Shown here one piece after another: positions 15,134-47,281 of a stretch of DNA of 64,000 nt. A program made the position numbers and the translations under genes. How positions within the stretch are numbered: the stretch's first letter is position 1; the number at the start of each line of letters is the position of its first letter. Origin of the DNA: Pelagophyceae sp. CCMP2097 (Eukaryota > Sar > Pelagophyceae); contig MU657165.1 of the NCBI GenBank assembly GCA_026770575.1, forward strand, positions 938,482-1,002,481. Reading direction: 5' to 3'. The notes beneath the pieces were generated by a model. It searched no databases. It worked only from the letters and a program-made list of their open reading frames with translations, and was not told the origin of the DNA.

Positions 15134-15887
15134 CCTGCTCCTGCTTCGCGCCCCGGCGCGGGCCGAGGAAATCTCCGTCGAAAAGCACAACAATGCGATT
15201 GCAACGGGGCTCGAAGTTTCGGCCTTTTTTGCGACTCAAATTTTTCGAGGGGCACGCGAAGGACGACACAGCGCTGGCGACGGGGGTGTGCGAGGCGATA
15301 GAGGCGCCCGGGAGGCGGCGGGCATGGTGACAAACTCAAGCCAAAATCAAGATTTCATCAAGTCCGAAAGATTTGGGGGAGTTCATGAATTCGCCGCCCA
15401 TGGCAGGGAGGCCCTTTGTCGGCCTCGAGCACGACTTTGTGCCACTTGAGGACAACTTGATGCGGCCGGTGCGTCAACTCAAACCCAAAGCGAACAAACT
15501 GACGCAAGCATGAGACCCGGACCTTTTGGCCCGGGAGCCTGACTTTGGCACCGATTGCTTGCTTAAGATCCACCCTGGGTGGGGATTCGTTGGGGAACCC
15601 TTTTGGGCCACCCCGATGCGCCGTCCCAAAATTTCCACAACAATCTCTCGCGTTTCCCAAGATCGGCGAAAATATTCACTCGAATCAGACAGGTCCTGCA
15701 GGTTAGCAAGGACCAAGGTCGCTCGACGGCAACGCGTGTTCCTTCGACGGGCGCCGGGCGGTTGGAGCTCCGGGACCCCGAGCGCGTCGGCGCGGACTTG
15801 GCCGGGGAGCCGCCCGTTCGCCCTCTGGCGGCACGAGTCGCGCCTCGGCCCGCGCGTCGCGCTCGCTTCTCGCCTTTGCGGGCTCCG
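15134..15887. other. Divergent intergenic region
   Basis: Separates the minus-strand nuclease gene from the plus-strand glycosyltransferase gene and should hold both promoters. The only distinctive item is the dispersed element at 15555-15584. No conserved coding sequence is seen. Confidence 0.4.
15555..15584 (+). repeat. Copy 1 of a dispersed short element
   Basis: The stretch TTGCTTGCTTAAGATC followed by the near-palindrome CACCCTGGGTG recurs at 25631, 46911 (inverted) and, truncated, at 45671. It sits in non-coding sequence each time. Confidence 0.75.
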
Positions 15888-25211: not shown

Positions 25212-26028
25212 ACGCGGCCGGATGCTCCGTCTTGCACGCAAATTGCGGGCGAGCTCGGCGAGGGTTACGCTTTACGGGCGGCGCCTGCGACGCCACCCGT
25301 GGCGGCCGGGAAGCGCATCCAAAGCGAGATGAACGAGGGCGTCCCAGACGCTTATCGCGACACACCTTTCGAAAAGCGCCATGACGTCTGGCCAGAGCAA
25401 TGCCCCGCCGCAAAGACGGAGCGGCGCTGGCAGCTGCGCGGCATGTCGTCGTCGAGGCACCTCAACACCCTGCGCGACGTCAAGGGCGCTGACCGATCCC
25501 CCCAGGTCACTGGGCCCATTTCTTTCTTCGGTACGTTCTCCTTGTGGGTCCAAGACTTCGACGCCGTTTACCGCACCAAACAAAAAGCCGACTTGATGAT
25601 GTCTGCTCTCTTATTGCGAGTGTAATGGCATTGCTTGCTTATAATCCACCCTGGGTGGGGCTGCCCCAAAAGGTTGTTTTCCTGTAAAGCCAGAGACGCG
25701 CCCAGACGGTCGCACGTGGGCAGTGAGGACCACAGAGAATGTCCGAAGCATATATCGAGATAATTTAAACTTTGAGAAGGCTCGTTTGGTGAAAATAGAT
25801 CACGTCAAATTTTAAATGTCAGAGCAACTTTTGTATAAAATTTAAGAGCCACCCATTCTCTCGACCAATCCAAACACAGGAGCTTACAGGCCGCGACGGT
25901 GCTGGCCCTTGCCTTTTCCAGAAATTAACGAACTTTTGCCGTTGGTTCGACGTTGGCTTCTTTTGAATATATCGACTTGCGAACAAAGTCTTAGGATCGG
26001 GCGCTCCCACGGCTGGACGTGCGCCGTG
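25212..26028. other. Intergenic region, AT-rich at 25640-25990
   Basis: Contains copy 2 of the dispersed element (25631) and a low-GC stretch unlike the surrounding genes. An open frame at 25299-25625 has no ATG. No other gene is supported; the 3' end of the WNK transcript should lie here. Confidence 0.35.
25631..25660 (+). repeat. Copy 2 of the dispersed short element
   Basis: TTGCTTGCTTATAATCC followed by ACCCTGGGTGGGG, differing from the 15555 copy at a few positions. Confidence 0.75.
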
Positions 26029-42627: not shown

Positions 42628-45056
42628 ATGGGCGTCGAGGGGCGGGGGCGGGGGCGGGACTCGCCGGCGATGCGTGCTGCGCGAGAGGTGGCCGCCGAAC
42701 CTCGTGGGGCGCCGCGGCAGCACGGCCTCCGTCCCAGCAAGGCCTCCGTCCGCGGCGTCGCCACAGAGGTGACGCTGCGCGACTTCGTCCTCCTCTCCAA
42801 GCTCGGCGAGGGTGGCTTCGGCAAAGTCCTGTGAGGAATACCGCCACGGGGGGCGCCCGGCCCCGCCCACCCATCGAGAGCGGCCCTGGCGCTTTGCAGC
42901 GGCGAGTGCGTCTGCTATTAGCTTGGCGCGGAAGAAGGCGGGCGGCACGATGCACGCGATCAAGGTGCTGGACAAGGCGGCGTTGCTAAAGAAGGGCGAC
43001 TCGACCGTTCGGCACGTCCTCGAGGAGAACGCCATCTTAAAGACGCTGCACCACCCGTTCGTGCTGCAGCTGCACTACGCGTTCCACGACGAGTACCGAC
43101 TCTACCTCGTCACGCAGTGGGTCGGGGGCGGCGATTTGTTCGAGCACCTGGAGCACCAGGGCCACTTTCCGGAGAAGTGGGTCGCGTTTTATACGGCCCA
43201 AATCGTCTGCGGCGCCCCGCGCCCGAATAAGGAAGACGCGGCGCGACGCATTGGGCATGCGGGGGTGGCGGCCGCCCCGGATCGCGTCTGTAGGCGCCCT
43301 GGCGTACGTGCACCTGCACGGCATCGTGTATCGCGACCTCAAACCCGAGAACGTGCTCCTCGGCCTCGACGGCTACTGCGTCCTGGCCGACTTCGGCCTC
43401 GCGAAGAAGATCCTCAGAGACGCGGAGCTGCCCCAAAAGCGGCGAGACGGAGAGACGGAGCTCAAACTGCTGCTGCAGCCGGACGGCGGCGACGAGGTGG
43501 TTTGCGGCGACGAGGTCGTGGGCCCGCTCTTGGACGCCGAGGCGGACGCGGTCATCGCTTCAAGCGCTCGATCGATGCTCGGCCGGGATTTGAGCGCGAC
43601 GCGCGGGCAGCGGCCTTCGATGGACCGGTGCAACACGTTCTGCGGCACGGCGCTGTATTTAGCACCAGAGGTCATCTCGAAGATGCCCTACGGCCCGAGC
43701 GTCGACTTGTGGACGCTGGGCTGCCTCCTCGTCGAGATGCTGACGGGGACGCCGCCCTTCGTCGCCACGGACGTACAATCTTTGATGAAACAAATTACTT
43801 CCGCTGAGCCCGTACTGGACTCTGGCGTAGACGTCTCCCCAGAGGCGCGCGCGCTCATCTTTCGCTTGCTGGACCGCGACCCGAAAAGACGCATCGGCTG
43901 CTCGCCGACGGCCATGAGCGACGACGTGGCCGTCAAGGGCCACGCCTTCTTTTCGGGCGTCGACTTTGAGGCCCTCGTGCAGAAGAAGATTGACGCGCCG
44001 TACCTCCCGACGACCGAGGCCCTCCTCGGCCCGACGCGGTCGGGGCCCTTGCAGTCGGGTTTGCCCTCTCCCTTGGACGCGTTTGAAGATTTTGTGGCTC
44101 AGGATGAGGCAGACCGAATCAACGCCTCCGAGGCCGCCGAGCTCGGCGACCGCCAGCGCCGACGCCCCGACGCGCCGAGACGACGGGGCGCCACCGCAGA
44201 GAGCGCCACCGCTGAGAGGCGCGGCCTTTCGGCGGCACGGTGCGCCTCGCGACGCCCTCTGGTCCTAGGCGACTACGCGCGGCTGGGCCGCCTCGACTCG
44301 CTGCTGCGCGCGCTGGACGACGGCGCGGACGTGAACATGGCTCTGCCGGACGACCGCACTCTCCTGCAGATAGCCGCGGCCGAGGGCCACACGGCGTGCG
44401 TGCGTCTGCTCATCGACCGGGGAGCGTCCGTGGAGCACACGGACCGCTTCGGTTTGAGCGCGTTGGAAGACGCGGACCGCGAGGGCCACGAGGCGGTGGC
44501 GCTGCTCCTGGTCGAGGCCGGAAGCAAGCTGCCCGCGACGGTGGCCTCGCAGCAGCTCCTCGACGCCGCCCTGCGAAACGACGTCGCCCAGGTCGCCCAA
44601 GTCCTCGGCCAGGGCGCAGACGTCAACACGTCCATGGCCCACGACCAGCGCACCGCCCTCCACGTGGCCGCCATGGAGGGCCACGTCTCGACGGCGCCAA
44701 AGCGGCGCCGCAGAGGGGCCCGGGCGAGAGGCGCCCTCGCGCATTTTCAAAAACGGCCCGCGCAGGTGGCGCTGCTGCTGGAGAAGGGCGCCGACGTGAA
44801 CGCGCGGGACCGCTGGGGCCGCACGCCTCTGCAGGACGCCACGTTCGAGCGCCACGGAGCCGTCGAGCGCGTCCTCCGCAGCCACGGCGGGAAGTCCGGA
44901 CCCAGCCCGAGCCACTCGCTCCGCGCCGGACAGCCGAGCTTCAAGGCCTTCTCCAACCTCATACCGAGCAGCCCGTCGTTCAAGCCCAGAGGCCTGTCCA
45001 CCTCCGGAGAAGGCTCAGGCGACTCCGTCCAGTCCGGCGCGTGCGCCGTCTCGTGA
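42628..45056 (+). CDS. AGC-family protein kinase with C-terminal ankyrin repeats
   Basis: Exons 42628-42830, 42922-43208 and 43294 onward to 45056, with one further likely intron near 44682-44765. The kinase has [18 protein letters not shown], the AGC-type [12 protein letters not shown] catalytic loop, [20 protein letters not shown] and [15 protein letters not shown]. Between DFG and the CGT/APE segment there is an insert of about 60 residues, acidic and Ser-rich, unusual in the activation loop. A C-terminal lobe ([18 protein letters not shown]) is typical of AGC kinases. Ankyrin repeats follow ([48 protein letters not shown]). The second intron must use a GC donor (TCT then GCGGCG). The hydrophobic-motif phosphosite is not obvious. 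Confidence 0.85.
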
Positions 45057-45134
45057 GACGAGGCGCGCGAGGTTCTTGCGTAAACATTGTACATTGTAAG
45101 GATCGCGCGCGCGTCGGCGTGGCGAGGCGCAGTC

Positions 45135-45205
45135 GTTGAGAGTCGGGGCGTGGTCGCGGGCGAGGGGTTATGGTTGGTCCCCTTCGTCCGGTCATGTCGC
45201 TCAAC
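45135..45205 (-). promoter_or_regulatory. Candidate SECIS element in the 3' UTR
   Basis: Read on the minus strand about 75 bp after the stop of the selenoprotein gene: helix I GTTGAG (45200-45205) pairs with CTCAAC (45135-45140). Inside lie the ATGA of the non-Watson-Crick quartet (45192-45195) and its partner GA (45154-45155). Helix II (CGGACGAAGGG against CCCTCGCCCG) has 9 of 11 Watson-Crick pairs, and the apical loop (ACCAACCATAA) contains unpaired AA. This is the SECIS architecture, although the AA lies about 15 rather than 11-12 bases from the quartet. A folding check would decide. Confidence 0.5.
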
Positions 45206-45277
45206 TCGCTTTCCAACGATGCGCCTCGGCGGCGGTGCGCGGGCCCTCGGCTAGGTGCCGGAGGCCTTCAGCTAGTG

Positions 45278-46739
45278 TCAGGTGCCGCGGGCCGCCGGAG
45301 CGCTGGCGTCGAGCTTGCCGACGTAGAGCCCGTCGAACGCGTCGGCGTGGCGCTCCACGGCGCGCGCGAAGCGGCGGACGTCGCGCAGCGCCGGCGCCGC
45401 CGAGGGCGCCGCGGCGAGGATGCCGTCCGCCATCGAGACGATGCGGGCCTGGCGCCAGGGACGCTCGGGCGCCGCGCTCGCGAAAAGAAAGCGATGCACG
45501 AAGATGCACAACGATGCACGAGGAAAGGCCGCGCGGAGGGGGCTTCCTCTCAAAGAAGTACGGCGGGGACTCTCTCGCGGCGCGGCGCGTTTTCTCCGGC
45601 CTCGGACGCCGGCGCGCGCGTGGTCGGCCGCGTGGGACGCGAGCGCCGAGTACGGCCCACCGTCACCTAGGTTTGCTCGCTTCAGATCCACCCTGGCAAT
45701 GTGTGTGAGTGTATGACCCGGCGCCCCCGCGCCTCTGGAGGCGACTCCTTCGAGGCCATCATGCTGCCCGGGCTTTCCGACGGGCACCCCCGGCGCAGTG
45801 TGGTGCCGCCGAAGCCGGCGGCGCGCATGACGTCCTCCTCGTGCGCCGCGTGTTCCTTAAATGCGTCTCGCGCCGACGCGAGCGCTGCGGCGCTCGGCGA
45901 CGCCATGAGCGACCGCAGGCCGTCCGACAGCGCCTAGGGCCACGTTGTAAATCGTCGCACGCGCGCGGCGGCGGACCCGGGTTGCCGACGCGGGGAAGCG
46001 CCGCGTGCTCTGCGTCCATTTCCGCGTGGCCCACGGCGGCGAGCGGCTTCGGTTCGTAGGCGTCGTCGTCGTCCGGCTGCGCGGCGTCGCCGGTCTCCTC
46101 GAAGCCGTCGGCGGTGCTTAGGTTGTCGGGCTTGATTGCGAGGGCAGTGCCGTCATCGAGCGTAACACCAACGCGGCCTTGTGCGTCCACCCCTCTGGCG
46201 ACGGCGCCGCGCTGGCCGTTGCGCTCGGCGGCGGCGACGAGGCCTTTGAGTTCGACGCGCGCGCCGACGGCGAAGCGCAGCTGGGGCTCCAGGATGTTTT
46301 CCAGGGCGCGGAAGGCGCGGTCGCCCCGGTCGTTAAACGACATTGTCTTCGTCGTCACAAACTTCCCCGCGCCGTCGATGACGACGAAGCCGCCGCAGCC
46401 GAGCTGCGCCGGGAAGCGCGGCATGTCGCCGGGCGCGACAAGGCAGTTGGCGCAGGTCTGGAGCATTCGCCGCGAAAAGTCCCGCGCGACCGCCGCCGAC
46501 TCGACGCAGACGCAGAGGAAGAGCACCCGCCCGCCGTACGCGCGCTGCCAGACCTCCATCTGACGCGCGCACGGCGGGCACCCGCCTCAGCCGCCGTTGT
46601 AGAGGTGCAGCACCGCCGGGCGGCCCTGGCCGACGAGGGCGGAGAGGGGCGTCTTGTGCGGCGCTACCGAGCCCGAAGAGACCATCGTCACGTCGAACGA
46701 CGGCACCCCGCGGCCCGCCCACGAGTCGTACGACGCCAT
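45278..46739 (-). CDS. Selenoprotein: thioredoxin-like domain plus hemerythrin-like domain
   Basis: Four exons (45990-46739, 45807-45933, 45620-45666, 45278-45448) close in frame to 364 residues if the in-frame TGA at 46587-46589 is read as selenocysteine (residue 51). The context is LHLYNGG-U-GGCPPCARQ, giving a U-x-x-C pair directly followed by a CPPC thioredoxin-type active site. The fold continues with MPRFPAQLGCGGFVVID (cis-Pro region). A small beta domain (LKGLVAAAERNGQRGAV...DDGTALAIKPDNL) and an acidic linker follow. The C-terminal half has paired His (EHAAHEEDVM, SHAADHARIV, ERHADAFDGLY) like a hemerythrin four-helix bundle. No intron can remove the TGA without deleting CPPC. Role: probably a redox/oxygen-responsive protein. 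Introns 2 and 3 appear to use GC donors. Confidence 0.75.
45671..45697 (+). repeat. Truncated copy of the dispersed short element
   Basis: GTTTGCTCGCTTCAGATCC followed by ACCCTGG, inside intron 2 of the selenoprotein gene; the right half of the near-palindrome is missing. Confidence 0.55.
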
Positions 46740-47281
46740 CGTGCGCGCCGAGCCGCTTAAAGTCGCGGTCTTCCGACTCGACGGACCGTGACAAAATGAA
46801 CCAAGGAGTCGCTAAAAAGTGCGGTCTACTTTGTCAACTGGGGGCTTTTCAAAAATTTAATGGGGCCACTTTTGAAATCAACAACAAGTTCTTGAAGCAA
46901 TTTGGGCCAGCCCCACCCAGGGTGGATCTTAAGCAAGCAAGCAAGGGGTGAGGCATGAGGCATGAGGGTGTTAATTTATAGACCGGAAAGCGGGGTGAGA
47001 TAAGTATCTAACCACTTGATGCGCTTGATCCAAGAGGCAGCCGAGACTGCAATCAAGGAGCGGCTGTTGAAGGGGGTGTTCTTCTTATTCGCTCGGCGAG
47101 CCTTCGAGAGGCTTGGTGATGTTGGCAAGGATGGTTTCGATCGTCAGGGGCGCGGTCCGATGTCGAAGCGCGAAGACGATCCTAGTTGTATACTATAAAC
47201 TGAAACCCTCGTGCCTTCGGCACGCCATGGGCGAGGTGCCCTATGCCACGCACTTGCTCCACGAGTCTGCGAGGGGCCGTT
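46740..47281. other. Intergenic region
   Basis: Between the start of the selenoprotein gene and the end of snurportin (both minus). It holds copy 3 of the dispersed element in inverted orientation. A 60-codon open frame at 47016 (plus) has low GC and no recognisable similarity, so I do not call it. Confidence 0.4.
46911..46942 (-). repeat. Copy 3 of the dispersed short element (inverted)
   Basis: On the minus strand it reads GCTTGCTTAAGATCCACCC then TGGGTGGGG, the same core as at 15555. Confidence 0.75.

Follow-up and report, generated by a model that had tools for sequence, protein, structure and literature searches.

The gene described here, from Pelagophyceae sp. CCMP2097, in all likelihood encodes a 360-residue selenoprotein, in which a presumably SECIS-directed selenocysteine (Sec) at position 51 would serve as the attacking residue of a thioredoxin-like domain, with a small β-barrel and a hemerythrin-like domain behind it. 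The gene lies on the minus strand of the analyzed stretch of 64,000 nucleotides (hereafter the window), and its mid-gene stop codon, which the original prediction had read as selenocysteine, very likely does encode this residue. A frame break at the same place in relatives, the alignment to thioredoxins, a SECIS-like hairpin behind the gene, and a SepSecS gene together with ten further genes with in-frame TGA codons in the same genome all support this reading. The frame break, the fold assignments, the ligand pattern of the hemerythrin part and the hairpin were computed; the insertion of selenocysteine itself, the redox reaction and its coupling to the iron are inferred. The deposited annotation, which starts behind the UGA, omits the active site of the protein, and the database entries of ten relatives are cut at the same place. 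The analysis yields a full-length gene model and a candidate SECIS, and it proposes a link of selenium to non-heme iron that can be tested in a group of algae with large selenoproteomes.

Gene structure and deposited annotation

Reading the minus strand from the ATG at 46739, we found 50 open codons followed by the TGA and then by GGCPPCARQMEVWQ, which confirms the predicted placement of the TGA in frame between 50 open codons and GGCPPCARQ. Splicing of four exons (Table 1) gives a product of 360 residues plus stop, and not the 364 residues proposed earlier. Residues 61–360 are identical to the deposited protein M885DRAFT_504795 of Pelagophyceae sp. CCMP2097 (P0002, 300 aa; source tags ncbi, jgi, nr and mmetsp), and the CCMP2097 annotation is limited to these 300 residues, behind the TGA. 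A search of the genome (66.2 Mb in 638 contigs) gave no second copy of this gene stretch.

In the gene model matching the deposited protein, all three introns (45449–46001) begin with GC instead of GT. A 24-nt motif, CCAGGGTGGATCTKAAGCRAGCAA, has copies at 45673–45696 (−), 46917–46940 (+) and 15555–15578 (−) and occurs 266 times in the genome, compared to 0 control matches; the first of these copies closes intron 2 at its 3′ end, a place that would suit an introner or the end of a transposon. The convergent neighbour (43041–45056, +) is a long frame that by eye appears kinase-like, followed by ankyrin-type repeats; about 220 nt separate its end from the stop codon of the gene described here.

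Table 1. Features of the candidate selenoprotein gene, in positions of the window
Feature	Position	Strand	Basis
Codons 1–50 upstream of the TGA (MASYDSWAG...HLYNGG)	46590..46739	−	Open frame; residues 23–50 match the end of P0009
In-frame TGA, read as putative selenocysteine 51	46587..46589	−	Aligns with the first Cys of WCGPC; relatives broken there
Predicted active-site stretch U51-G-G-C54-P-P-C57	46569..46589	−	Alignment to thioredoxins
Thioredoxin-like domain, residues about 14–154	46278..46700	−	
Small β-barrel (Tudor/KOW/SH3-like), residues about 155–212	46104..46277	−	
Hemerythrin-like four-helix bundle, residues 235–347, exon 1 end to exon 4	45278..46037	−	
Exon 1, coding part	46002..46739	−	Model giving P0002 exactly
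Intron 1, GC-AG, 68 nt	45934..46001	−	Model giving P0002 exactly
Exon 2	45807..45933	−	Model giving P0002 exactly
Intron 2, GC-AG, 140 nt; copy of the repeated genome-wide motif at its 3′ end	45667..45806	−	
Exon 3	45620..45666	−	Model giving P0002 exactly
Intron 3, GC-AG, 171 nt	45449..45619	−	Model giving P0002 exactly
Exon 4 with terminating TGA (stop codon 45278–45280)	45278..45448	−	Model giving P0002 exactly
SECIS-like 3′UTR element (ATGA 45192–45195)	45126..45225	−	Fold and own-genome loop comparison

A thioredoxin-like domain around the TGA codon

The thioredoxin-like domain put forward in the original prediction is supported by the fold and by weak PDB matches, 10 of 12 rows of which are thioredoxins. 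Fold matches were obtained to thioredoxins and to hemerythrins, none of them at E ≤ 0.001 in Foldseek, and no thioredoxin-type model of Pfam or NCBIfam scored above cut-off (AhpC-TSA with E 0.091 and thylak_slr1796 with E 0.089 were both below). Taken from a low-confidence model and weak PDB matches, the thioredoxin assignment is thus meant at fold level. In the three alignments shown, the thioredoxins align without a gap across the TGA, with U51 on the first cysteine of WCGPC and U51-G-G-C54 on C-G-P-C. This suggests that Sec replaces the attacking cysteine and that C57 is an extra residue. UGGC had earlier been described as a pair next to a CPPC site of thioredoxin type; this need not be so, since the alignment puts U51-G-G-C54 itself on C-G-P-C.

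It could also be that the protein is a selenoprotein whose thioredoxin pair is CPPC (C54/C57), with Sec51 as an extra residue in the preceding loop. CPPC is the motif of tryparedoxins and nucleoredoxins, and the helix in the low-confidence AlphaFold model begins at residue 55, which leaves room for CPPC. However, pLDDT is below 50 at residues 48–54, and U51 falls on the first cysteine in the thioredoxin alignment, which runs without a gap through the site and both flanking strands, so that we consider a CPPC pair rather unlikely and prefer Sec51 as the attacking residue.

The reading frame is interrupted at the same place in relatives

Protein searches, two of which scored only the approximately 8000 candidates with the most shared words, led to 12 proteins (P0002–P0013), namely P0002 itself, ten relatives and P0009. 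All ten relatives (E-values 9.3e-136 to 2.1e-30, identity about 32–49%) start just past the TGA position, nine at a methionine aligned with Met61 and one (P0012) two residues before the Met61-aligned position. P0009 is a 217-residue open reading frame ending in ...PHKTPTSALIAGRPTVIHLYNGG / APHKTPTSALIAGRPTVIHLYNGG, the last residue of which aligns with Gly50, directly before the TGA. Its tail shares 20/28 identical positions with residues 23–50 (E 9e-12 in the single comparison, a weak 0.72 in the database search); its first 190 residues are without match to this protein, and a contig edge could explain its end. Judged by their sequences, P0009 on the one hand and the ten relatives on the other resemble the two parts of a single frame that is interrupted in other species. 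With ten relatives beginning directly behind the TGA and P0009 ending at it, the break goes beyond chance.

The original prediction had suggested looking for Cys or Sec at position 51 in homologs. Neither cysteine nor any other residue could be placed there, as 0/12 proteins (P0002–P0013) read through this position, which makes the usual Sec/Cys comparison impossible; what the homologs do show is the recurrence of the break. No relatives were found in viral contigs or in prokaryotic genomes, which left the window as the one nucleotide sequence in which the codon itself is read; the relatives show the frame break there.

Four of the proteins (P0002, P0006, P0008 and P0011) are tagged mmetsp, indicating that ORFs called from transcripts begin at the same place, and three of these (P0006, P0008 and P0011) have MMETSP transcript names marked “type:complete”, which argues against an intron as the cause of the break. 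An intron over the TGA would be of the GC-AG type, ending in ...CTGAG before GCGG, and would leave a mature protein with CPPC but without Sec. We considered 47 in-frame GT/GC...AG deletions of at least 40 nt that remove the TGA, with the donor at most 120 nt before and the acceptor at most 150 nt after it. Contrary to the initial statement that no possible intron keeps CPPC, 2/47 do so (45 nt and 87 nt), both with a GC donor, and they matter because all three introns of the gene are GC-AG. Both are nevertheless unlikely, because they remove the strand GRPAVLHLYNGG, which is conserved in P0009 up to its end and fits a strand of the thioredoxin fold. Moreover, such splicing should give a longer frame, whereas P0002 with its MMETSP source starts at Met61. 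Taken together, we regard an intron over the TGA as very improbable.

Hardly more credible is a protein that truly begins at Met61, as in the deposited 300-aa model, with the upstream 50 codons and CPPC not co-translated. The relatives do start there or two residues earlier, but such a product would lack the first strands and the active site of the thioredoxin fold, P0009 conserves the upstream peptide, and the thioredoxin alignment covers both sides of the TGA. A pseudogene or a sequencing error at the TGA, for which the single nucleotide sequence seen and the lack of a second genome copy could be cited, is the most improbable explanation, as the break is found again in relatives with about 32–49% identity and the remaining frame is intact and conserved. 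The GC-AG intron, the Met61 start and the pseudogene or error were each rejected on the evidence counted against them.

Small barrel and hemerythrin-like bundle

The small beta domain and hemerythrin-like bundle that had been predicted in the product are supported. The hemerythrin family PF01814 scored 36.6 bits (curated cut-off 25.3) and matched 8/8 alignment rows at E ≤ 0.1, two of the rows being the same protein. In the alignment of the protein with its relatives, H245, H274, E278, H300, H304, H338 and D343 are invariant; these seven positions (five His, Glu and Asp) fit the DcrH-Hr pattern, and we take them to be the iron ligands. As far as the alignment tells, the hemerythrin iron-ligand pattern is intact, with all seven presumed ligands kept. 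Among the Foldseek and VIA matches listed, there was no thioredoxin/hemerythrin fusion of solved structure, which is uninformative on the absence of such a fusion.

Elsewhere in the genome, a frame at C23:313508–313687 (L003) is related to the small barrel, with 42% identity over residues 157–221; it has hydrophobic stretches, and a thioredoxin site was not seen by eye.

A SECIS-like element in the 3′UTR

About 80 nt past the true stop, in a 3′UTR reaching from 45277 to about 45060, we found a SECIS-like hairpin composed of helix I, the core ACATGAC / CGACCA, a helix II of 10 pairs and the apical loop ACCAACCATAA. The stretch 45225–45120 folds with −42.3 kcal/mol compared to a shuffle mean of −29.2 (z −4.0), and 0/200 shuffles were as stable. 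Its core is nearly that of the SelT-like gene L004 (ACATGAC/CGACC). The apical AA lies 16 nt from the ATGA, the usual distance being 11–13 nt, and a scan requiring AA 7–14 nt from the ATGA missed the element. The Rfam SECIS search returned none in the gene region, nor in five other selenoprotein loci.

By eye, the 3′ ends of the GPX, SelT-like and SelM/Sep15-like genes of this genome share the plan ATGAC-helix-(C/T)GA. A structural SECIS filter, written after sight of the target and of seven own sites chosen by eye as ATGAC hairpins, passes 6/7 of these sites, or 5/6 if the identical 3′UTR site of the GPX genes L009 and L010 is counted once. On both strands of the window, it passes 11/206 ATGA sites including the target, which is the only one of the 11 with loops of the type ..ATGAC / (C/T)GA; the nearest other site is at 25329 (+), with AGATGAA / CGACACA. 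Across the fetched loci, 25/373 ATGA sites pass, overlapping copies included. Outside the filter design, a site of the SelU-like gene L017 with AAAATGAC/CGACCC passes, and L016 passes only with ATGAT, target-type loops being absent. The MsrA locus (L020) showed no pass within 1.5 kb downstream, and the GPX locus L007 has an ATGAC hairpin that fails the filter. At L033, the chosen site folds less well than two ATGAT hairpins; L009 also has an ATGAT site whose AA is standard, noted before the chosen ATGAC site. In a MAFFT alignment of the own sites, the 3′ halves were not brought into register.

The GPX gene L008 (C13:630467–630796) has a long unbroken helix II without an apical AA, its loop lying within GACCTCTTT, so that the strict AA rule may not hold in this genome. 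Counting the target, a bare ATGA-hairpin-GA (−12 kcal/mol or better) is found at 24/206 ATGA sites in the window; it also occurs in 72/2000 shuffled 3′UTRs, 34 of them with ATGAC. Since the bare hairpin is this common, it is the core loops, the pair of helices and the location downstream of the stop that carry the weight. The mRNA may thus use a lineage-type SECIS (ATGAC...CGAC), with the apical AA shifted or missing.

Selenocysteine machinery and other selenoprotein genes

The genome encodes SepSecS (C174, E 7e-45). A tRNA-Sec was found neither by Rfam nor by pattern, in a tRNA search that scored 53 of 5768 candidates, and SelD was not found, with no candidate at first look. In translation, ten other genes have an in-frame TGA at the expected place: four GPX, one SelT-like, one MsrA, two SelM/Sep15-like and two SelU-like. 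Two MsrA matches (L029, L031), whose in-frame TGA or TAG lies outside the active site, were excluded from this count, and the SelT-like gene L004 has a second in-frame TGA within its match. L017 (C23) and L016 (C74), both SelU/AhpC-TSA_2-like, carry in-frame TGA codons unflagged by the domain search, flanked by HYG and VFC in the former and by RRPG and RAC in the latter; downstream of L017 lies a SECIS-like hairpin.

Proposed mechanism

Directed by the SECIS hairpin, the ribosome would read UGA 51 as Sec, which would replace the attacking cysteine of the thioredoxin fold (U-G-G-C); C54 would be the resolving residue, and C57 would add a third thiol. By analogy to thioredoxin and TlpA, the selenenyl intermediate formed when Sec51 attacks a peroxide or disulfide would be resolved by C54 (or C57). 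The hemerythrin bundle may bind O2, NO or peroxide, and O2, peroxide or NO at the iron could be coupled to selenol-disulfide exchange; it is the fusion of the two domains and its conservation that point to such crosstalk.

We see it as quite possible, if somewhat short of probable, that the protein acts as a TlpA/AhpC-type thiol/selenol reductase, for which the state of the attached di-iron centre is substrate or switch. More speculative, and in our view doubtful, is a single-chain selenium-iron module in which a Sec-x-x-Cys-x-x-Cys thioredoxin reads or resets a di-iron hemerythrin as an O2/peroxide sensor in several marine microalgal lineages. If true, this sensor module would be wired through selenocysteine and is seen only with a frame break at its active site.

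Comparison with known systems

In algae, 42 selenoprotein families are described for 137 species, and the pelagophyte Aureococcus has 82 selenoprotein genes, in agreement with the large selenoproteomes that the original prediction had attributed to pelagophytes; CCMP2097 is unnamed in the main text of this source (PMC7539508). The combination of domains was one that the original prediction did not recognise. According to the same source, however, the algal selenoprotein TlpA has a hemerythrin domain, and 80% of the members of its family contain Sec (Jiang et al. 2020, PMC7539508); we therefore take the gene as a mis-annotated member of a thioredoxin-hemerythrin selenoprotein family that is probably already known, not as a new kind. 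Within the literature searched, PMC7539508 was the one paper found to join selenoprotein, TlpA and hemerythrin and, judged by titles, the only one among those on selenoproteins and hemerythrin to deal with algal selenoproteins; the word TlpA also occurs in PMC2397514 and PMC13188914. PMC5917014 lists thioredoxin-domain selenoproteins of Aureococcus, and the word hemerythrin does not occur in it.

Compared by description only, the algal TlpA family shares with this protein Sec, a thioredoxin-like domain and a hemerythrin metal-binding domain (PMC7539508). Here, too, a thioredoxin-like fold, weakly matched, is joined to a hemerythrin domain, and the in-frame TGA at the active site of the thioredoxin-like part presumably encodes Sec; the small β-barrel has no mention in the family description given in PMC7539508. 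The algal AhpC_b selenoproteins share UxxC in a fold of the thioredoxin-like superfamily, whereas hemerythrin is not part of their description in that source (PMC7539508), and AhpC-TSA stayed below cut-off here. With thioredoxin and the TlpA-DsbE oxidoreductases, the protein has the fold and the position of the redox pair in common, but it differs from them in the putative Sec in place of the first cysteine, the lack of a tryptophan before it, a third thiol at +6, the C-terminal barrel and hemerythrin domain, and the lack of a family model above cut-off. Finally, the four-helix bundle and the seven ligand positions are shared with hemerythrin, myohemerythrin and DcrH-Hr, whereas the bundle described here is fused behind what appears to be a selenium-type thioredoxin domain.
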